Shown: piece after piece, positions 8,545 to 18,661 of the stretch | How positions within the stretch are numbered: position 1 is the first letter of the stretch | Layout of the letters: each line of letters opens with the position of its first letter | Origin: Rhodocyclaceae bacterium | Lineage (GTDB): Bacteria; Pseudomonadota; Gammaproteobacteria; Burkholderiales; Rhodocyclaceae | Assembly: GCA_026646875.1 (NCBI GenBank) | Contig: JAPKHL010000012.1 | Span: 1 to 64,000 of the forward strand | DNA: 64,000 bases | Reading direction: 5' to 3' | The notes under the pieces: generated by a model | Seen by the model: only the letters and a program-made list of their open reading frames with translations | The model's database searches: none | Told to the model about the DNA's origin: nothing | Program-made: the position numbers and the translations under genes

Positions 8545-10299
8545 TCAGCCGACAATGCCGCGCAGGCCAGTCGCGCCGGTCGGCAGCGCTGCCCGCCAAG
8601 GCACCAGCGCGCAGCGCGGAGCCAGCACCTCGGCGACACGCTGGATGAAGGGCCGCTCGTACTCGCCGCGCTGGGCGAGCAGCGGATCGCGCGTACCGCT
8701 GGCGAGCAGGCTCTGGTTGATGACCCAGGCGAACGGAGCGATCCCGGCCCGCGCAAGATCGGCCTGCAGACGCTCGGCTTCGTGCACGGGCGTCGCCTCG
8801 GCGAGAGTGACGACAAGGATGCGGGTGTACGCCGGGTCGCGCAGGCGCGGCAGCAGCCGGGTCACCGCTTCCGGCATCTCGCCGCGGGTGCGCAGCACCT
8901 CGCGGTGATAGGCCTCGGCGGCATCGAGCAGCAACAACGTATGCCCTGTCGGCGCCGTATCGAGGACAACGAAACCGTCGCGGCCGCGATCGACCTCGCG
9001 CGCGAAGGCGCGGAATACGGCAATTTCCTCCGTGCAGGGCGAGCGCAGGTCTTCCTCGAGCAGCGCGCGACCCGCGACATCCAGGCTGGCGGAAGCCTTC
9101 TCCAACACCTCCGCGGCATATGCAGCCACCTCGCGCGCCGGATCGATGCGCCCGACGCTCAGCCGGGGCAGCGCCTCGCCCAGCGCCTCGGCCACATGCG
9201 CAGCCGGGTCGGTGGTCGACAGGTGCACGGCATGGCCCCGGTCGGCCAGCGCCACGGCAATGGCCGCGGCCACCGTGGTCTTGCCGACGCCGCCCTTGCC
9301 CATGGTCATGATCACGCCATGACCGGCGGCCGCCAGCGTATCGATCAGCGCAGCCAGCCCATCGGGCAGCGCAACGGTGCCCCCCTTGGCGGATACCGCC
9401 GGCGGCGCTTCGACACGCTCCGGATGGGCGACCAGACGGAGGGCGTCAAGCCCCACCGTGCCACGCGGCAGGAAGGGCACCACCGAGCGCGGCAAACCGC
9501 CGAGGCCGGCCGGCATGGCCAGCAACGCATCGCTGGCACGGCGGGAAAAGGCTTGCGCAATGCCATCGTCGCTCGGCCCCACGGAAAAGAGCCCGTTGAT
9601 CGCCAAGTGCAGATTGCCGATGCCCAGTGCCGCCAGCTCACTGCGCGTACGCTCCGCCTCCCGCAGCGCAGCGCTATCCGGCCGAGCGACGAGCACCACT
9701 GCGGTCGATGCAGGATCGGCAAGGCGCTCGACAGTGGCCGCATAGAGCGCCTTCTGCCTTTCCAGACCGGCCAGCGGCCCGAGACAGGATGCACCGCCGC
9801 TCGAAGAGGCGATGAAACCGCTCCACGCCGAAGGCAGCGTCAGAAGACGCAGCGTGTGCCCCGTGGGCGCGGTGTCGAAGATCACGTGATCGAAGCCATC
9901 CGTCGCCTCCGGCGAACCGAGCAGCCGGGAAAACTCGTCGAAGGCGGCGATCTCCACGGTGCATGCACCGGAAAACTGCTCCTCCATGCTCTGGATGGCC
10001 GCCGCCGGGAGAATGCCGCGATAGGGCGCGACCATGCGTTCGCGGTAATCGCGCGCCGCAGCCTCGGGATCGATGTTCAGCGCGAACAGTCCGGACACCC
10101 CGGCGACCGCCGTCGGCGTCCGCCCGAGCGGCGTACCGAGCACCTCGTCGAGATTGGAGGCCGGATCGGTCGAAACGATCAGCACGCGCCGGCCGGTCTC
10201 GGCCAGCGCCAGGCCGGCGGCGCAGGACAGCGAGGTCTTGCCGACGCCGCCCTTGCCGGTGAAGAAGAGATGGCGGGTACGCAGCTCGGGCAAGGTCAT
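8545..10299 (-). CDS. arsA: Arsenical pump-driving ATPase ArsA (two ATPase halves)
   Basis: Two deviant Walker A motifs FFTGKGGVGKTSL and MTMGKGGVGKTTV; follows arsD; start ATG 10299. Confidence 0.93.
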   Translation of the reverse strand: MTLPELRTRHLFFTGKGGVGKTSLSCAAGLALAETGRRVLIVSTDPASNLDEVLGTPLGRTPTAVAGVSGLFALNIDPEAAARDYRERMVAPYRGILPAAAIQSMEEQFSGACTVEIAAFDEFSRLLGSPEATDGFDHVIFDTAPTGHTLRLLTLPSAWSGFIASSSGGASCLGPLAGLERQKALYAATVERLADPASTAVVLVARPDSAALREAERTRSELAALGIGNLHLAINGLFSVGPSDDGIAQAFSRRASDALLAMPAGLGGLPRSVVPFLPRGTVGLDALRLVAHPERVEAPPAVSAKGGTVALPDGLAALIDTLAAAGHGVIMTMGKGGVGKTTVAAAIAVALADRGHAVHLSTTDPAAHVAEALGEALPRLSVGRIDPAREVAAYAAEVLEKASASLDVAGRALLEEDLRSPCTEEIAVFRAFAREVDRGRDGFVVLDTAPTGHTLLLLDAAEAYHREVLRTRGEMPEAVTRLLPRLRDPAYTRILVVTLAEATPVHEAERLQADLARAGIAPFAWVINQSLLASGTRDPLLAQRGEYERPFIQRVAEVLAPRCALVPWRAALPTGATGLRGIVG

Positions 10300-10685
10300 C
10301 AGCAGCAACCCGACTTCGGCGTGCAGCAGCGCCCCGTCCCGGCAGGTTTCTCCCCGCCCGCCGCCCGCGCCGCATCGCCTCCGGCCGACAGGCCGAGTTT
10401 CTGCGCCAACTGTGCACGCGACGGATAGAGCCCGGTGCTCGCGACCTGCCCATCGATGACAACGACCGGCAGCCGATCCATGCCGGCTTCCATCTCCTTC
10501 AGCACCGCCGGATTGGCGGCAAAGGCCTGCGGCGCCTGTCCGAGGTTGTGGCGGGAAACGGCAACGCCCTGTGCCTCGACCCATTGCAGGTCTGCCGCGA
10601 ACTGCGCCAGCACCGGATCGACCTCCACTCCGCAAACACCGGTCGAGCAGCACATGGCGGGATCGAACACTTCGAGTTTTCTCAT
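10299..10685 (-). CDS. arsD: Arsenite efflux metallochaperone ArsD
   Basis: MRKLEVFDPAMCCSTGVCGVEVDPVL...; C-terminal CC...CC motifs. Confidence 0.93.
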   Translation of the reverse strand: MRKLEVFDPAMCCSTGVCGVEVDPVLAQFAADLQWVEAQGVAVSRHNLGQAPQAFAANPAVLKEMEAGMDRLPVVVIDGQVASTGLYPSRAQLAQKLGLSAGGDAARAAGGEKPAGTGRCCTPKSGCC

Positions 10686-10709
10686 GATTTTTCTCCTTGG
10701 AAATTCATG

Positions 10710-11780
10710 TCAGCGGTTTCCTTCGTACCAGTTCCGGGTGGAATTGACCATGCGCACCAGCCACAGCATCACCGGCACCTCGATCAGCACGCCGACCACG
10801 GTGGCCAGCGCAGCGCCGGAATCGAAACCGTAGAGGACGATGGCCACGGCCACCGCCAGCTCGAAGAAATTCGAGGCGCCGATCATCGTCGATGGCCCGG
10901 CGATGTTGTGCGCCACGCGGAAACGGCGGTTCAGCCAGTAGCCGAGTCCGGCGATGAACAGCCCCTGCAGCAGGATGGGCACGGCAAGCATGGCGATGAT
11001 CAGCGGCTGCGCGGCGATGGCTTCGCCCTGAAAGGCGAAGAGCAGCAGCAGCGTGGCCAGCAGCGCCACCATCGTGAACGGCGCGATGCGCGCCACCGCC
11101 GCCTGGAAGAGCGCCTCGCCGCGCGCCATGAAATGCCGGCGCAGCCCCTGCGCGATGGCCAGCGGAATGACGATGTAAACCACCACCGAGAGCAGCAGCG
11201 TATCCCACGGCACCGGGATGGCCGACACGCCGAGCAGGAAGGCAACGATGGGCGCGAAGGCAAAGACCATCACCAGATCGTTGAGCGCCACCTGCGAAAT
11301 GGTGAAATTGGCATCGCCGCGACACAGATTGCTCCACACGAAGACCATTGCCGTGCACGGCGCGGCGCCAAGCAGGATCAATCCGGCGATGTAGCTGTCG
11401 AGCTGCTCCGCCGGCAGCCAGGGCGCGAAAACGTGGCGGATGAACAGCCAGCCCAGCGCAGCCATGGTGAAGGGCTTCACCGCCCAATTCACGAACAGCG
11501 TGATGCCGATGCTCGCTCCCTGCTTGCGCACCTCGTGCAGCGAAGCGAAATCGATCTTCATCAGCATCGGAACGATCATCACCCAGATCAGCAGCCCCAC
11601 CGGCAGATTGACCTGCGCCACCTCCATCCGCCCCACGGCCTGGAAAAAGGCCGGCGCCAGCTGACCAAGCGCGATTCCCGCACCGATGCAGAGCACCACC
11701 CACAAACTCAGCCAGCGCTCGAAGACGCCGATCGGAGCCCCCACGGCCGCCCGCGCCGCACGCTCGCACTGCACGCTCAT
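10710..11780 (-). CDS. Arsenite efflux transporter, Acr3 family
   Basis: FERWLSLWVVLCIGAGIALGQLAP..., MVFVWSNLCRGDANFTISQVALND; in ars operon. Confidence 0.9.
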   Translation of the reverse strand: MSVQCERAARAAVGAPIGVFERWLSLWVVLCIGAGIALGQLAPAFFQAVGRMEVAQVNLPVGLLIWVMIVPMLMKIDFASLHEVRKQGASIGITLFVNWAVKPFTMAALGWLFIRHVFAPWLPAEQLDSYIAGLILLGAAPCTAMVFVWSNLCRGDANFTISQVALNDLVMVFAFAPIVAFLLGVSAIPVPWDTLLLSVVVYIVIPLAIAQGLRRHFMARGEALFQAAVARIAPFTMVALLATLLLLFAFQGEAIAAQPLIIAMLAVPILLQGLFIAGLGYWLNRRFRVAHNIAGPSTMIGASNFFELAVAVAIVLYGFDSGAALATVVGVLIEVPVMLWLVRMVNSTRNWYEGNR

Positions 11781-12610
11781 TGCCCGCCCTCCTCCGCATG
11801 GATCCTGCGCGCGGCGGCCTGCACCTCCGCCGCCGGCATGCGCTCCAGCGGCAGCGCGAGAAACGCCGAAATCCGGCGCACCAGCTGCGCGTAGGCCGTC
11901 TCGAACGCCGCGCGGCGGGCCGCCAGCGGCTCGACATGCGCCGGATCGGGAATCGCCCAGTGCGCCGTGGCCGGATGCCCCGGCCACACCGGGCAGGCCT
12001 CGCCCGCCGCGCTGGCGCACACGGTGAAGATGAAATCCATGCGCGGCGCCTCCGGCGTGGCGAACTCCGTCCACGACTTGCTGCGCGCCTCGGGCAACGG
12101 CACTCCGTGCCGCGCCAGCGTTTCCAGCGCCACCGGATTGACCGTGCCGGACGGCTGGCTGCCCGCCGAAAAGGCACGCACGCGCCCCGGCCGCGACTGG
12201 TTGCCGAGATGATTGAACAACGCCTCGCCGAGAATCGAGCGGGCGGAATTGCCGGTGCACAGCACCAGGATGTTGAAGACAGGCAAGGCAGGCATCGAGC
12301 AGTCCTTGGGCAGACAGAGTTCGGGATGACCGTGGCAGCAGTCCTCGGTCAGGAAGGCAAGCAGCGCGTTGATGCCGGCCATGGCCGCCCGGTAGCGCAC
12401 GTAACGCCCCTCCTGCGCCATGCTGACCAGCCCCGCCTGCGCCAGCGTCTTGAGATGGAAGGACAGCGTCGGCGCCGGCAACGCCAGCTGTTCGGCAATC
12501 GCCCCCGCCGTCATCCCCTCGGGCCCATGGCGAACCAGCAGACGGAAAACGGACAGACGGCTCTCCTGAGCCAGCGCGGACAGCGCAGTGACGGCGGCTT
12601 TTGATTCCAT
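11777..12610 (-). CDS. ArsR-family repressor fused to low-MW-phosphatase-type arsenate reductase (ArsC)
   Basis: ArsR winged helix (ALAQESRLSVFRLLVRHGPEGMTAGAIAEQLALPAPTLSFHLKTLAQAGLV) followed in one frame by NILVLCTGNSARSILGEALFNHLG. Confidence 0.88.
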   Translation of the reverse strand: MESKAAVTALSALAQESRLSVFRLLVRHGPEGMTAGAIAEQLALPAPTLSFHLKTLAQAGLVSMAQEGRYVRYRAAMAGINALLAFLTEDCCHGHPELCLPKDCSMPALPVFNILVLCTGNSARSILGEALFNHLGNQSRPGRVRAFSAGSQPSGTVNPVALETLARHGVPLPEARSKSWTEFATPEAPRMDFIFTVCASAAGEACPVWPGHPATAHWAIPDPAHVEPLAARRAAFETAYAQLVRRISAFLALPLERMPAAEVQAAARRIHAEEGGQ

Positions 12611-12660: not shown

Positions 12661-12816
12661 GTTTCGGCCCAAGGCTCGATCCCGAGCGACGAAGGGCCGA
12701 TGAAACTCTTCTATCTGGCCCTACGCAACATCAGCCAGAAATGGACGATGCCGATTCGGGATTGGAAAGCCTCGCTGACTCACTTTACTATCCAGCTCGA
12801 TGAACGGATTCCACAG
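12661..12816 (+). pseudogene. 3' remnant of an IS256-family transposase
   Basis: In-frame reading GSIPSDEGPMKLFYLALRNISQKWTMPIRDWKASLTHFTIQLDERIPQ resembles the IS256-family C-terminus (HFPSDEAA..KLL.LALRNI.KKWTMPI.DWK.ALN.F.I....R.P); possible IR end gtttacacatagattcggacaggc follows at about 12833-12856. Confidence 0.75.
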
Positions 12817-12891
12817 CGCGATTTGAAACCCCGTTTACACATAGATTCGGACAGGCACCAACTAGATTCCAGCCCTACTTCGGAGATCTGA

Positions 12892-15800
12892 ATGCAGCCC
12901 GGCGACAAAGTCCGCTTGAAGGCCAACCCGGGCAGGGTTGGCATCCTCGGTAACGAAACCGATGGCCCACCGCATCGATTCCGAGTTCTAGTCACCTTCA
13001 CAGACGGTGAAGAGCAGTTCGTACTCAAGAACTCGCTCGAGAAGGTCGACCGGGCATCGGCCGGCCCTTATGCAATGGTGGCCAGTGGTCGTTACGGCCG
13101 AGTCGAGGATCTCCGTGGTGCGATCACGTATTACCGGCTGAGCGGTCGACTAGCAAACCTCATCTACAGCCTGAACACGACGAACACGCAGTTCCTTGCC
13201 TACCAGTTCAAGCCTGTACTGCAGTTCCTCGACTCGCCGTCGAACGGCATCCTCATAGCGGACGAGGTCGGCCTCGGCAAGACCATCGAGGCCGGCCTGA
13301 TCTGGACGGAGCTCCGCGCCCGTGTCGATGCGAAGCGCCTCTTGGTGATCTGTCCCGCGATGCTTCGCGAAAAGTGGAAGGCCGAACTCTCCGAGCGCTT
13401 CGGGGTGAGCGCGGAGATCGTCGATGCACGCGGCCTGCTCGACCACCTGCAGAGCGCACGAGAACGCCCCCAGCAACAGTTCGCGCTGATCGCCAGCATG
13501 CAGGGTTTGCGCCCGGCCAAGGGCTGGAATGACGATGAGGAGCCCTCCCAGGCAACCACTGCAAAGCTGGCGCGCTTTCTGAACGAGGCGGACCTCGAAG
13601 AGCCCCTGCTCGACATGCTGATCATCGACGAGGCGCACTACCTGCGAAACGACGAAACGGCTACCCATCGTCTGGCCCGGCTGCTTCGTCCAGTCGTGCA
13701 GAGCATGGTGATGCTGTCGGCGACACCGATCCAGTTGCGGAGCGACGATCTTTTCAACCTGCTCAACCTGATCGACGAGGACTCCTTCCCCTTCCCCACC
13801 TCGTTCCAATACTCCCTGCAGGAAAACGCACCGATCGTCGCCTTGCGCGACCGGATCCTGAGTCACGTGGTCACGCCCACGGATTTCGTAGAGACCTTGC
13901 GTGAGGCAGTTGGTGGTCGCATCTTCGGCGACAACGCTCAGCTCGAGCACCTCATCAATCATCCGCCCTCTGCCGAGGACCTTTCCTCGCCGCGCGGACG
14001 CTCAGAAATTGCCGATCAGCTGGACCGAATCAACCCGCTGACCAAGGTCGTCACGCGAACCCTGAAACGCGACGTGCAGGAAATGCGCGTGCAGCGAGAT
14101 CCGGTGACGGTCCGCGTAGAGATGAACCCGATCGAGCGCGAGTTCTACGATCAAGTGACCGAGGCGGTTCGCGAGTTCTGCGCGCGCATCGACATCTCTG
14201 AAGGCTTCATGCTGACGATTCCGCAGCGCCAGTTGTCCAGCTGCGTGGCAGCCGCGTGCAAGGGTTGGCTCGATCGCACGGAAGTCGATGACGAAGAGCT
14301 TGCAAGCGAGGTCTTCGAGCTCTACGGCGATGCCGAGGACAACGAGAAACGCCCGAACCTTGGCGCCCTATTGCGAACACTCGTGGGCATTGCACGACGC
14401 GTTGGCGACCACACGGCACTCGAATCGGTGGACAGCAAGTACGACATGCTGGTCCGCAACCTGAAGCAATACTGGGCTGCTTACCCCGGCAAGAAGATCG
14501 TTCTGTTCTCCTTCTACCGCAACACGCTCCACTACCTCGCACGCCGGCTGGCAGCAGAAGGGATCCAGTCTGCAGTGCTTCACGGCGGGATGGACAAGCA
14601 TGGCGTGCTGCGGCACTTCGAGTCGACCGAAGGCCCCGACATCCTGATTTCTTCAGAGGTCGCTTCCGAGGGCGTGGACCTCCAGTTCTCCAGCCTGCTC
14701 ATCAACTACGACCTGCCCTGGAACCCCGCCCGGATCGAACAGCGCATTGGTCGTATCGACCGGATCGGACAGGAAGCCGAGAAGATCCTGATCTGGAATT
14801 TCATCTACACGCACACGATTGATGAACGGATCTACGACCGACTGCTGGAGCGCCTCGACATTTTCCGCCAGGCGCTCGGCAGCATGGAGGCGATGCTGGG
14901 CACCGAGATCCGCACGCTGAGCTACGAGCTGCTATCGCACAAGCTCACACCGGAGCAGGAGCAGGAACGCATCGACCGCGCCAGTCTTGCCATCGAGCGA
15001 GTGAGCAGGCAGCAGGCGCTGCTGGAAGAGGAAGCCACCCAGCTGATCGCCCATGGCGACTTCATCCAGAACAAGGTACGGGCCGCCAAGGAGTTGGGTC
15101 GCTTCATCCGAGGCGAAGATCTGCTCGCCTACGTGAAGGATTTTCTCGAGCGTGAGTTTCCCGGGACGCGTTTGCTTGCGGACGATGACAACGAGCTCGA
15201 GCATGTCATCGAGATCTCGACCGAGGCCCGCGTCGCTTTCTCCGAGTTTCTCCAGCAACAACGGCTTCAGGGCGCAACGCGCCTCCTTGGTGCCGCACCG
15301 CCAAGGCTCATCTTCGAGAACCGTCATGGGCGGAACCCGTCCGGAAAGGAACGGATCACGCAAGATCATCCGCTCGTGCGCTTCGTGGCGGATGAGTTGA
15401 AGAAGGGTGGAAAGGGGCCGCTCTACAGCCCGGTTGCGGCGGTGGAAATCCTGGGCAACACGGTTGGAAACATCGAGCGCGACATCTACGTCTATGCGAT
15501 CGCACGCTGGACCGTCTCGGGTGCCCGCGACATCGAGCGGCTGGAGTATCTGGTCCAGCGGCTTGCGGACGGTTGGTTGCTCGACGGCGAGCAGGCGGAG
15601 TTTCTCGTGAATGCCGCCGGTCTCCAGGGCCGGGACTGGCTGGGCGCAAGCACAAGCCTGAACCATGCGCACACCGCCGGGGTGCTCGACGACTGCCGTG
15701 CCGAGCTCGAAGAGCGTTTTCGCGCATTTCGTGACGCACAGATCCGCGAAAACCGAGATCGCGTCAGCTTCATGGTGAACACCCTTCGGCATCACCTGGA

Positions 15801-16005
15801 TAACCAGCGCAGGCGCTTCCACGAACGAATCGAGAAGTATCGACTGCACGGTACCGACAAGCAGAGGCGACTGATTCCAGCGGAAGAGGGCCGGCTCAAG
15901 AAGCTCACCCAGCGCATCGAGGCACGGATCGCTGAGTTGCGCCTGAAGGAGTCGATCCAGGCCCACGACAGCATGGTGTCAGGCGGCGTCATCCGAGTGG
16001 TCTGA
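12892..16005 (+). CDS. SNF2-family helicase (RapA/DrmD-like)
   Basis: 1037 aa; GILIADEVGLGKTIEAGLIW (motif I), MLIIDEAHYLRND (II), MLSATPIQLRS (III), SSEVASEGVDLQFSSLLINYDLPWNPARIEQRIGRIDRIGQ (V/VI); N-terminal small beta-rich domain PGDKVRLKANPGRVGIL. Confidence 0.92.
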   Translation: MQPGDKVRLKANPGRVGILGNETDGPPHRFRVLVTFTDGEEQFVLKNSLEKVDRASAGPYAMVASGRYGRVEDLRGAITYYRLSGRLANLIYSLNTTNTQFLAYQFKPVLQFLDSPSNGILIADEVGLGKTIEAGLIWTELRARVDAKRLLVICPAMLREKWKAELSERFGVSAEIVDARGLLDHLQSARERPQQQFALIASMQGLRPAKGWNDDEEPSQATTAKLARFLNEADLEEPLLDMLIIDEAHYLRNDETATHRLARLLRPVVQSMVMLSATPIQLRSDDLFNLLNLIDEDSFPFPTSFQYSLQENAPIVALRDRILSHVVTPTDFVETLREAVGGRIFGDNAQLEHLINHPPSAEDLSSPRGRSEIADQLDRINPLTKVVTRTLKRDVQEMRVQRDPVTVRVEMNPIEREFYDQVTEAVREFCARIDISEGFMLTIPQRQLSSCVAAACKGWLDRTEVDDEELASEVFELYGDAEDNEKRPNLGALLRTLVGIARRVGDHTALESVDSKYDMLVRNLKQYWAAYPGKKIVLFSFYRNTLHYLARRLAAEGIQSAVLHGGMDKHGVLRHFESTEGPDILISSEVASEGVDLQFSSLLINYDLPWNPARIEQRIGRIDRIGQEAEKILIWNFIYTHTIDERIYDRLLERLDIFRQALGSMEAMLGTEIRTLSYELLSHKLTPEQEQERIDRASLAIERVSRQQALLEEEATQLIAHGDFIQNKVRAAKELGRFIRGEDLLAYVKDFLEREFPGTRLLADDDNELEHVIEISTEARVAFSEFLQQQRLQGATRLLGAAPPRLIFENRHGRNPSGKERITQDHPLVRFVADELKKGGKGPLYSPVAAVEILGNTVGNIERDIYVYAIARWTVSGARDIERLEYLVQRLADGWLLDGEQAEFLVNAAGLQGRDWLGASTSLNHAHTAGVLDDCRAELEERFRAFRDAQIRENRDRVSFMVNTLRHHLDNQRRRFHERIEKYRLHGTDKQRRLIPAEEGRLKKLTQRIEARIAELRLKESIQAHDSMVSGGVIRVV

Positions 16006-16029
16006 ACCGGCACGAAAAGGGAGAAGAAG

Positions 16030-17853
16030 ATGGCTGGCCAGATGGCAGAACTGTTGAAGAAGGCCTTTGCAGAGAAGGGCGTGCAGCTTCCAGGCGCCAA
16101 GGTCGAGACCCGAAAGGTTCTCCCAACCGGCAGTGGCGAGTCATCACAGCACACGGGCCAAAGCGCGGAAACACCGACGGTATCGCCCCCGGCGGGCCCC
16201 AAGGCACCCACGGCACCCAAGGAAGGAAAGAGATCCGACCCGATCGCCGAGGCTTGCAAGAAGTGGCGTGCGGAGCATCCGGTGGCTCGCGCAAAGGCGC
16301 CAGTCAAATCGTCTCAAAGGGCCGCTCCCCTCGCTTGCTACGACTCGTCACCCGTGCGTGCTGGCAAATCACCCGAAGGCAAGGTGTCGCCCTATGAGGT
16401 TCGCCTCGGCTCCGCCGCAAGGCTTGCGCTCACCCTCGACGAACAGGTCGAGCTCGAAGTGCTGGATGTATACGAGGAGTTGGGACGGAGCAGCCAGTGC
16501 TGCCACGAGACGGCGGATGACGAGCATCTGATCGCCATGGGGGTCGATTTCGGGACGTCGAGCATCAAGGTGGTGATCGGCGACCCTGCCCTTGGCAAAG
16601 CCTTCGCAGTACCGTTCACAACGGCAAGCGATGTCGCCCGGTATCTCCTGCCGACCCGCTTGCACGAATCGGCAGGACGGTTCTCCTTGTGCGAAGGAGA
16701 AGAAACACATCGCGACCTGAAACTCGCATTGATTGCGAACCCCGGCGATCTGGTGTTGCGCGAGCGCGTGTCCGCCATGCTCGCCCTGGTCATCAGGCAA
16801 GCTCGGGGCTGGCTGTTCGCAACGCATGCCGACGTCTTCGCCCGAACCCGGCTCCTGTGGAAGCTCTCGATTGGCCTGCCCGTCGCCCACCACCTGGACG
16901 ATGAGCTGACTCAGACCTTCAACGATGTAGCGCACGTGGCCTGGCTTGCAGCGTGCATGCCGCGAGATATCTCACGCGCATCAATCGCAGCAGCAAGGGA
17001 TCGCAAGCACGAAATCGCGGCAGCCCCCGAGTGCATGTCGGAGGACGAGGATGTCGAGATTAGCGTCGTCCCGGAGATCGCCGCGCAGATCTTCGGCTTC
17101 GTGAATTCGAGCCGTTTCAATCGTAGGGAGCAGAACATCTACCTGATGGTGGACGTCGGCGCCGGCTCGGTCGATTCATCGCTGTTCCACGTCAAGCCGG
17201 CGCGCGGGGGAAAATGGGACTTCGAATTTTTCACCTCGATCGTCGAACCGCACGGCGTCATGAACCTCCATCGTCATCGTGTGGGGTGGTGGGAAGAGGC
17301 GCTTTCGCAGTGCAGCGAACCTAAGGCTGGACTCATCTCGAGCGCGCTGGCAGAGCACAAGTATCCGACGGATCGGACCGTCGCTCTCCCGAGTCGATTC
17401 ACTCGCTACGTCCATGATGCGAAGGTGTTCTTACGCAAGCCCTCGGACGACCCCGACGACACCTTCTTCCAGAAAAAGGTGGTCAGCCAGGTGCGCGGCA
17501 AGAGCTACTGGCGAGCATGGAAAGATGGGCATCTCACCCCCGCACAGCTGATCGGCGTACCTGCGTTCTATTGCGGAGGCGGCATGCGTATGGAGTTCTA
17601 CAGCAAGCTGCAAAACCAGATGCAGTCGATGCCTGGCTACAGTTGGCTCAGGGCTGAACCCAGGCGAGTCGAGTTGCCGAAGAACCTCGAGGCCCCAGGG
17701 CTTCACCGAAGCAATTACGATCGGATGACCGTCGCCTATGGCCTCAGCTTTCTGGAGGTTGGAACAGTCACTAAAGCAGTTCCGCCCCCGAAGCTTCCCT
17801 TGAAGCAAGAGACATCCTGGACAGAGAACTATGTCGGGAAGGAACACTGCTGA
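16030..17853 (+). CDS. Hsp70/actin-like ATPase-fold protein
   Basis: 607 aa; MGVDFGTSSIKVVIGD (phosphate-1), IYLMVDVGAGSVDSSLFHV (phosphate-2), VPAFYCGGGMRMEFY (adenosine motif); 24 nt after helicase. Confidence 0.8.
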   Translation: MAGQMAELLKKAFAEKGVQLPGAKVETRKVLPTGSGESSQHTGQSAETPTVSPPAGPKAPTAPKEGKRSDPIAEACKKWRAEHPVARAKAPVKSSQRAAPLACYDSSPVRAGKSPEGKVSPYEVRLGSAARLALTLDEQVELEVLDVYEELGRSSQCCHETADDEHLIAMGVDFGTSSIKVVIGDPALGKAFAVPFTTASDVARYLLPTRLHESAGRFSLCEGEETHRDLKLALIANPGDLVLRERVSAMLALVIRQARGWLFATHADVFARTRLLWKLSIGLPVAHHLDDELTQTFNDVAHVAWLAACMPRDISRASIAAARDRKHEIAAAPECMSEDEDVEISVVPEIAAQIFGFVNSSRFNRREQNIYLMVDVGAGSVDSSLFHVKPARGGKWDFEFFTSIVEPHGVMNLHRHRVGWWEEALSQCSEPKAGLISSALAEHKYPTDRTVALPSRFTRYVHDAKVFLRKPSDDPDDTFFQKKVVSQVRGKSYWRAWKDGHLTPAQLIGVPAFYCGGGMRMEFYSKLQNQMQSMPGYSWLRAEPRRVELPKNLEAPGLHRSNYDRMTVAYGLSFLEVGTVTKAVPPPKLPLKQETSWTENYVGKEHC

Positions 17854-17963
17854 GCAGTGGGCTCACCGTTGAGATTTTCTGGTACGCGGTAGGACGGCGC
17901 AATGCGATACCGCGTCAATCTGTGAAAAACGGGCAAGCGGGAGATCGGGAAGCGCCGGCGGCA

Positions 17964-18368
17964 TCAGTGCGAATCCGCCCGGATGTACTCGATGGACAGG
18001 CCCAGCGGCGCCGCCAGCGGCAGCCAAGCACGGTCGGCGGTGACCGCAACGGCATTCTCGCGCAGCGCCAGCGCGAGGCAGGCGCGGTCGCCGAGCGAGA
18101 GCCCGAGATGGCGGGTGGATTGGCGCAACAGGCCGGCCTCGGTGGCCTGCGCCGCATCGAAGGGCAGGCAGCGCGCCTGCAACTGGCCGATGACCTGCCG
18201 CAGGACAGCCTCGGGCTGGCCCAACTGCGCCAGCCGCGTCACCACCTCGGCGGCGTTGACGCTTGAAATCAGGCAGTCCTCTTCGTGCAGGAGCTGGTGT
18301 ACCCGCGCCTGCCCGGGTTCGTTGAAGATCCAGGCCAAACAGGCCGATGCGTCGAGGACAAAACTCAT
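17964..18368 (-). CDS. PIN-domain toxin (VapC-like)
   Basis: MSFVLDASACLAWIFNE... SSVNAAEVVTRL... GLSLGDRACLALALRENAVAVTADRAW: PIN acidic residues. Confidence 0.88.
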   Translation of the reverse strand: MSFVLDASACLAWIFNEPGQARVHQLLHEEDCLISSVNAAEVVTRLAQLGQPEAVLRQVIGQLQARCLPFDAAQATEAGLLRQSTRHLGLSLGDRACLALALRENAVAVTADRAWLPLAAPLGLSIEYIRADSH

Positions 18369-18661
18369 GCCGGGGCTTTCCCCGGCCGTGCGGCGGATTC
18401 AGCCGCCTCGGCATCTTCACGCGCGGCCTCGGCGCGCCGCTCGGCAATCAATTCATCGACGATGGAGTGCTCGGGCCGATCCTTGAACAATCCGGCGAAA
18501 AATTGCCGGGCCCGCTCGACCTGCTGCCGACGCGAAGTCAGCACGAGCTGGCCGTCAACCTCGGTCCAGATCACTTCATCGCCTTCCTTGAGGCCCAGTT
18601 TCTGGCGGTATTCCTTGGGAACAACCACGCGACCGCCTTGTGACATGATTGCAGTATTCAT
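18365..18661 (-). CDS. AbrB/MazE-type antitoxin
   Basis: MNTAIMSQGGRVVVPKEYRQKLGLKEGDEVIWTEVDGQLVLTSR; 4-nt overlap with PIN gene. Confidence 0.85.
   Translation of the reverse strand: MNTAIMSQGGRVVVPKEYRQKLGLKEGDEVIWTEVDGQLVLTSRRQQVERARQFFAGLFKDRPEHSIVDELIAERRAEAAREDAEAAESAARPGKAPA

Follow-up and report, generated by a model that had tools for sequence, protein, structure and literature searches.

A mobile gene pair predicted to encode a RapA-type SNF2 helicase and an Hsp70-fold ATPase: a candidate anti-invader module

RapA, the RNA polymerase-recycling SWI2/SNF2 ATPase, acts on RNA polymerase and on transcription complexes. A RapA-like motor is also found in the defence system ARMADA, in which ArmA is a BrxHII/RapA-like helicase, ArmB a PglX-like methylase and ArmC a YprA helicase (PMC12458937). 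Hsp70-type proteins have been described in other prokaryotic conflict systems, namely CnuD and CnuCD of the CoCoNuT systems, of which CnuD is predicted to bind RNA and is reported to have degenerate motifs (PMC11090510), and the HSP70 proteins without a peptide-binding domain that are included in GTPase-centric conflict systems (PMC7159879). Here we describe a pair of adjoining genes that encode an SNF2 helicase and an Hsp70-fold ATPase. The pair lies in 64,000 nucleotides (nt) of contig JAPKHL010000012.1 from a Rhodocyclaceae bacterium (assembly GCA_026646875.1), a stretch that we refer to as a whole as the window, and it was first noticed in an annotation made from the sequence alone (the initial annotation). 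In a literature search of partial coverage, with subscription papers mostly outside it, we found no published description of an Hsp70–SNF2 or a sacsin–SNF2 defence pair.

We propose, with a probability of about 0.5, that this pair is an autonomous, horizontally mobile two-gene anti-invader module, in which the Hsp70 nucleotide-binding domain (NBD) uses ATP to switch or clamp the motor and does not serve as a folding chaperone. That the pair is a real, conserved and mobile two-gene unit we regard as near certain.

Conservation and mobility of the gene pair

In the window, the open reading frame (ORF) of the helicase is followed on the same strand by that of the Hsp70-like protein, and the spacer between them contains a purine-rich ribosome-binding site (GGGAGAAGAAG). 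The ORF coordinates (Table 1) agree with the initial annotation, which had described a helicase of 1037 amino acids (aa), a gap of 24 nt and a 607-aa protein. Compared with copies in Thauera, both genes are under purifying selection, with a ratio of non-synonymous to synonymous substitutions (dN/dS) of ~0.06 for the helicase gene and 0.12-0.14 for the Hsp70-like gene. Since both genes are under such selection and are paired in all informative genomes, chance is ruled out for the two-gene arrangement.

Related loci were sought in GTDB-species genomes with an alignment of the Hsp70-like protein that included no helicase sequence. The scan relied on one peptide pattern, so relatives with an altered phosphate-1 motif were missed. 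A helicase homologue adjoins the Hsp70-like gene in 71 of the 73 loci found (in shortened form in L065 and L069; L numbers designate individual loci), and the remaining two lie within 450 bp of the end of the contig or locus. Plasmid records add two cases from Sphingobium and one from Cyanobacterium. The two genes mostly overlap by up to 28 nt or are separated by up to 60 nt. The helicase gene comes first in 58 of the 71 loci measured (three of them on plasmids), and the 13 loci in which the Hsp70-like gene comes first are all cyanobacterial.

The association also holds when the helicase is taken as the starting point. Of 399 Pseudomonadota genomes, exactly five give a score above 700 bits with the PADLOC DrmD model PDLC02623, the same five that carry the Hsp70-like gene, and a further 369 genomes of the class yielded one more helicase of the subfamily, again with an adjoining Hsp70-like gene (6/6 overall). 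The Hsp70 gene is absent beside five relatives that score 370-405 bits and have enough flanking sequence, and beside six of six canonical DISARM DrmD helicases (0/11). Homologues are thus kept as a pair in both directions (71/73 forward, 6/6 reverse), a point on which the initial annotation had made its proposal of a module depend. Moreover, the protein distances of the two partners correlate with r = 0.97 over 63 loci (r = 0.80 for distant pairs only), and none of 2000 permutations gave a value above 0.13. This co-variation is due in part to joint inheritance, which is itself the point.

The distribution of the pair is sparse and patchy, covering ~1% of the sampled Pseudomonadota, and it spans about ten phyla: Pseudomonadota, Cyanobacteriota, Acidobacteriota, Thermodesulfobacteriota, Bacteroidota, Spirochaetota, Verrucomicrobiota, Nitrospirota, Omnitrophota and Bipolaricaulota. 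The phylum labels were taken from record titles, and as several loci come from metagenome-assembled genomes, the count may include binning errors. A search of viral contigs with the Hsp70-like alignment gave 32 pattern matches and no relative.

The nearest relatives of the window pair are found in Thauera phenylacetica B4P and Thauera sp. 28, whose helicases are 99% and ~98% identical to that of the window. The 5.06-kb block common to the window and the two Thauera copies consists of the two genes with 31 bp before and 67 bp after them. In Thauera, the surroundings include a WYL regulator, brxC and a NERD-UvrD helicase. Because the shared block holds only the two genes amid unrelated surroundings, the pair moves as a unit, which bears out the earlier description of a mobile two-gene module. 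The G+C content of the two genes is 61%, as against 68% for the window.

The initial annotation had further linked this mobility to an IS256 remnant upstream and a VapBC pair downstream. The remnant is real, having been identified as IS256 by DNA search (Pfam gave no match for its 54 aa). However, it is a neighbour that ends exactly where the block starts, and as it lies outside the block we rejected its membership of the module; the native upstream region of the pair may have been lost to this element. The downstream genes also exist, as a PIN toxin with a MazE/AbrB-type antitoxin, but they too lie beyond the shared block and were rejected on that ground. Arsenic-resistance genes are found directly upstream of the IS256 remnant (Table 1).

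Predicted folds and conserved residues

Pfam recognizes SNF2-rel_dom and Helicase_C domains in the helicase, and the key residues of the five classical helicase motifs do not vary among 45 aligned homologues, so that motifs I, II, III, V and VI are intact, as had been stated initially. An AlphaFold model of the protein (predicted local distance difference test, pLDDT, 81.9) has a small N-terminal beta-barrel, two RecA lobes, and a C-terminal alpha/beta region with a long coiled coil. Escherichia coli RapA accounts for the top five Foldseek matches of this model, over ~1000 columns and with template-modelling (TM) scores of 0.48-0.58 on the target, and RapA is likewise the best PDB match in a sequence-profile search. 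The NCBIfam RapA score of 174 bits is below the cut-off of 576. Judged by the model, the helicase is a RapA-type SNF2 translocase/helicase of superfamily 2 (SF2), with the full-length RapA architecture. The initial annotation had spoken of DrmD/RapA-type helicases in general; this protein is of the RapA type and falls outside the DISARM DrmD clade. Two cyanobacterial loci (L065:8620-9993 and L069:3362-4798) encode helicase remnants of 457 and 478 aa, in which the N- and C-terminal parts are retained and the motor is lost, with the Hsp70 gene adjoining.

The Hsp70-like protein has no match in Pfam, NCBIfam or single-sequence PDB searches, and a search of its own genome with PF00012 found other proteins and missed this one. 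An AlphaFold model built from 57 relatives (mean pLDDT 80.6) is confident at approximately residues 155-585. The 50 Foldseek PDB matches listed for it belong to the Hsp70/Hsp110 family, with TM scores of ~0.5-0.59 against isolated NBDs. We also considered an actin fold of the ParM/MreB type, for which the profile search was weak and mixed, and rejected it because the predicted structure clearly favours Hsp70. The initial annotation had pointed to both Hsp70/actin phosphate motifs and a GGG motif, and these are invariant or nearly so over the 57 homologues; the catalytic set of the NBD (D173, T176, K231, E349, D375 and GGG) is invariant. A direct alignment to DnaK with hhalign spans the connect-1/phosphate-2 part only. 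On the basis of the model, the second protein is predicted to carry an Hsp70-type NBD.

The model ends ~30 residues past the NBD, so the substrate-binding domain is absent. Both this absence and the unusual N-terminus had been recognized initially, and the model shows the latter to be disordered (Table 1). A simple hydropathy scan found no transmembrane helix in the N-terminus, and the homologue from Leptolyngbya has a long coiled-coil-like extension there. At the other end, a short C-terminal tail is a possible docking peptide; the regular expression that describes it was picked after viewing the tails and is exploratory. In seven Hsp70-like proteins (L013, L014, L016-L019 and L021), this tail is replaced by a CxxCxGxG zinc-ribbon-like segment that recalls DnaJ zinc fingers.

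The helicases nearest to the pair clade have a different partner. In place of the Hsp70 gene they carry a gene for a sacsin-domain protein (TmtA in PADLOC) of ~1030-1110 aa, often with a 4-bp overlap, and one such partner, on a Methanomethylovorans plasmid, is annotated as an HSP90-family chaperone. In a tree with canonical DrmD as the outgroup, the Hsp70-paired helicases form one clade (61 rows; Shimodaira–Hasegawa-like approximate likelihood ratio test, SH-aLRT, 91) and the sacsin-paired helicases a neighbouring grade. We give this tree moderate weight, as it is a quick one with a simple model and flagged long branches; in a first FastTree with more distant rows, three pair helicases fall just outside the pair clade. 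The sacsin-paired lineage looks like a second unnamed two-gene module. Since these neighbouring helicases pair with an ATPase of the Hsp90/sacsin type, a chaperone-fold switch could be a general need of this lineage of motors. A GHKL (HATPase_c_3) gene was also observed between drmMI and the pair in two loci (L041:4426-6513 and L029:4503-6383).

Table 1. Features of the gene pair, its surroundings and related helicases. Positions refer to the window unless a locus is named.
Feature	Position	Strand	Remarks
SNF2 helicase gene	12892..16005	+	1037-aa ORF
Walker A GLGKT	13270..13284	+	residues 127-131; invariant, 45 homologues
Walker B DEAH box	13627..13638	+	residues 246-249; key residues invariant, 45 homologues
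Helicase motif SATP			residues 276-279; key residues invariant, 45 homologues
Helicase motif EGVDLQ			residues 593-598; key residues invariant, 45 homologues
SF2 motif VI QRIGRIDRIGQ	14740..14772	+	residues 617-627; key residues invariant, 45 homologues
Hsp70-fold ATPase gene	16030..17853	+	607-aa ORF; predicted NBD only
N-terminal extension	16090..16371	+	residues 21-114; disordered, lineage-variable; pLDDT mostly < 50
Phosphate-1 GVDFGTSSIK	16540..16569	+	residues 171-180; D173, G175, T176 and K180 invariant, 57 sequences
Lys231, candidate counterpart of DnaK Lys70	16720..16722	+	invariant; counterpart inferred from spacing
Connect-1 VVPEIAA with Glu349	17065..17085	+	E349 invariant; hhalign places it on DnaK NEPTAA
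Phosphate-2 MVDVGAGSVD	17146..17175	+	residues 373-382; D375 and G377 invariant; hhalign to DnaK YDLGGGTFD
Adenosine motif YCGGG	17569..17583	+	GGG 516-518 invariant
C-terminal tail WTENYVGKEHC	17818..17850	+	motif [F/Y]..K[D/E]..-COOH in 36/75 homologues
Transferred unit	12861..17920	+	sole block common to window and Thauera loci; 97% and 95% identity
3' end of IS256-family element	12673..12861	+	blastn, 78% DNA identity to IS256 transposase genes; abuts transferred block
Arsenic-resistance genes (ArsR, SBF/ACR3-type permease, ArsA)	8548-12604	-	directly upstream of IS256 remnant
PIN-domain (VapC-type) toxin and MazE/AbrB-type antitoxin	17964-18661	-	outside transferred block
Sacsin-paired RapA-like helicases	L094:3670-6837, L095:12582-15701, L166:9600-12782, L162:10901-14242, L163:11032-14157, L165:11022-14126		bacteria and archaeal plasmid

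Gene neighbourhoods and proposed mechanism

A greedy ORF method was used to call flanking genes at the related loci, and the neighbour counts are therefore minimum values. The neighbours of the pair vary by clade, and for this reason no third gene could be accepted as a conserved member of the module. Class 1 DISARM genes surround the pair in six loci (L029, L034, L037, L038, L040 and L041), in the order drmMI, often a GHKL ATPase, helicase, Hsp70, drmA, drmB and drmC, and DISARM-type genes adjoin it in five others (L016, L018, L030, L031 and L039). Elsewhere, the pair is found near McrBC (L005, L017, L076, L077, L079 and L080), a RecD-like PDC-S68 protein (L032, L058, L059, L062, L072, L075 and L078) or a type III methylase (L044, L046, L048 and L050). 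In the last four loci, a recurring unrecognized protein of 1013-1043 aa is also encoded beside the pair (L050:13878-17015, L044:1-3132, L048 and L046). By a tally based on incomplete annotation, a recognized defence-type gene lies within 10 kb at ~32/73 genome loci. Many loci have no recognized defence neighbour, and the window is among them: nothing homologous to the neighbours seen at related loci (DISARM, McrBC, type III methylase or RecD-like) occurs in its 64 kb. The link to defence made in the initial annotation is thus upheld as a recurrent context, one that is far wider than was guessed (DISARM, McrBC, type III restriction–modification, RecD-like and BREX).

We consider it probable that the pair is a defence module; whether the Hsp70-like protein gates the motor is, in our estimate, an even question. 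We infer defence activity, a direct contact between the two proteins, the order of gating and the target as follows. The motor would be a RapA-type SNF2 translocase of double-stranded DNA, and its partner a free Hsp70 NBD. In its ATP-bound state, the Hsp70-like subunit would dock on the N-terminal barrel and the C-terminal region of the helicase and restrain the motor. An invading nucleoprotein would then engage the complex; by analogy with RapA, this target would most plausibly be a complex that transcribes (or replicates) foreign DNA. Hydrolysis of ATP by the Hsp70-like subunit would release the motor, which would translocate and strip or stall the foreign complex, and nucleases encoded next door (DrmAB/C, McrBC, type III Res or RecD-like) would receive the exposed DNA. 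A nucleotide-driven switch fits better than a folding chaperone, because a nuclease-free motor is tied to an ATPase that has the Hsp70 catalytic set and no substrate-binding domain. The suggestion that the N- and C-terminal parts of the helicase form the docking surface comes from L065 and L069, which keep exactly these parts and the Hsp70 gene with the motor gone.

Several observations weigh against this proposal. The association with defence is based on neighbourhoods, and about half of the loci have no recognized defence gene, though their flanks are incompletely annotated. The copy in the window has no nuclease and stands beside arsenic-resistance genes instead of in a defence island. Furthermore, as 31 bp separate the start codon from the IS256 end upstream of it, the native upstream region is missing and expression of this copy is uncertain.

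More tentatively, and with somewhat less confidence than in the module itself, we suggest that a RapA-type DNA motor gated by a chaperone-fold ATPase (of Hsp70 type in one lineage and of Hsp90/sacsin type in its neighbour) could represent a general and undescribed class of prokaryotic immunity, which would be nuclease-free when alone and would also serve DISARM, McrBC and restriction effectors as a plug-in trigger.

Alternative explanations and comparison with known systems

The helicase could in principle be the DrmD of a reduced or variant DISARM system that has lost its remaining genes, but we consider this very improbable. PDLC02623 does match the window helicase over its full length at 901 bits, and in several genomes the pair is enclosed by a class 1 DISARM operon. 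At that score level, however, the model recovers pair helicases only, and because at high scores it recovers these and not canonical DrmD, a pair on its own can receive a DISARM gene annotation. The NCBIfam DrmD score is 422 bits, below the cut-off of 610, and trees place the pair helicases in a clade apart from that of canonical DrmD. Moreover, a canonical DrmD (1040-1430 bits) is also present in nine genomes that have DISARM genes by the pair, and in eight of them it lies on the same contig as the pair, within ~12 kb; in the L029 genome the pair and DrmD hits are on different contigs, so the two need not share an operon there. Since DISARM loci with the pair keep their own DrmD, the pair is an added module in them. 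Canonical DISARM loci lack an Hsp70 gene, and most pairs have no drmA, drmB or drmC nearby. The initial annotation had reported the other DISARM genes as missing, and indeed the 64-kb window contains no homologue of drmA, drmB, drmC or the DrmMI adenine methylase. We therefore rejected a DISARM remnant on the separate clade and the co-existing canonical DrmD, which largely refute this explanation. The earlier view that the pair cannot be assigned to a named system is likewise retained, as the PADLOC 'DrmD' label fails on clade, cut-off and co-existing DrmD.

Three further explanations seem unlikely to us, each for its own reasons. The pair might be directed at RNA or translation, with the Hsp70-like protein binding RNA or ribosomes and bringing the SNF2 protein to stalled transcription–translation complexes. 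This would suit the known action of RapA on RNA polymerase and the fact that some pairs adjoin McrBC. The Hsp70-like CnuD is predicted to bind RNA in McrBC-derived CoCoNuTs, but its motifs are reported to be degenerate (PMC11090510), whereas the catalytic residues are invariant here. The associated effectors that can be annotated are DNA restriction, methylation and helicase–nuclease proteins, and none of the annotated neighbours had an RNase, SmpB, YTH or cold-shock domain. An arrangement resembling toxin–antitoxin or abortive systems, in which the SNF2 motor would be toxic to its host once freed and is kept inactive by the Hsp70-like protein until infection, is about equally doubtful: subfamily helicases were not found without the partner, the genes are translationally close and the unit is mobile, but the Hsp70 gene usually comes second, contrary to most antitoxin-first operons, and is kept even where the motor is lost. 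Slightly less probable still is a non-defence accessory, that is, a mobile spare RapA with a chaperone that aids transcription recycling under stress. RapA is the closest solved structure and arsenic-resistance genes flank the window pair, which would agree with such a role, yet it accounts poorly for the sparse and patchy distribution, the transfer as a unit and the repeated insertion into several unrelated defence operons.

If our preferred reading of a motor switched by an Hsp70 NBD is correct, a two-gene immune module of its own, present in about ten phyla of bacteria, is concealed under the widely used 'DrmD' annotation; DISARM operons with the pair possess an additional regulated motor that the DISARM literature searched does not consider; and ATPases of Hsp70 and Hsp90 type serve bacteria to switch DNA motors. 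The pair would also allow a clean experiment, in a system of two genes and no nuclease whose ATPases can be inactivated separately.

Among known systems, class 1 DISARM shares with the pair an SNF2 helicase, the name of the PADLOC model and, where the pair is inserted, the operon itself, but differs in the clade of its DrmD, which co-exists with the pair helicase, in its DrmA, DrmB, DrmC and DrmMI, which the window lacks, and in having no Hsp70 partner at canonical loci. ARMADA resembles the pair in having a RapA-like SNF2 helicase (ArmA) in a defence operon, while the main text of the preprint makes no mention of an Hsp70-type protein (PMC12458937). CnuD of CoCoNuTs and the GTPase-centric HSP70 are likewise Hsp70-type ATPases recruited to prokaryotic conflict systems, but their descriptions set them apart, with McrBC-type or other GTPases as partners and no SNF2 motor; the window contains no homologue of the McrBC-type neighbours, such as the CnuB/McrB-like GTPase of type III CoCoNuTs. 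The sacsin-type Hsp90 ATPases, including TmtA of Tiamat, occupy the place of the Hsp70 gene beside the neighbouring helicases, but have a GHKL (Hsp90) and not an Hsp70 fold and are absent from the window. The second protein is like the DnaK chaperones in its predicted NBD and catalytic residues, and unlike them in having neither a substrate-binding domain nor a PF00012 match. Finally, the helicase is similar to RapA over nearly the full length of the fold, with 19% identity in the structural alignment, but unlike RapA it is encoded by a patchy mobile gene with an obligate Hsp70-like partner.

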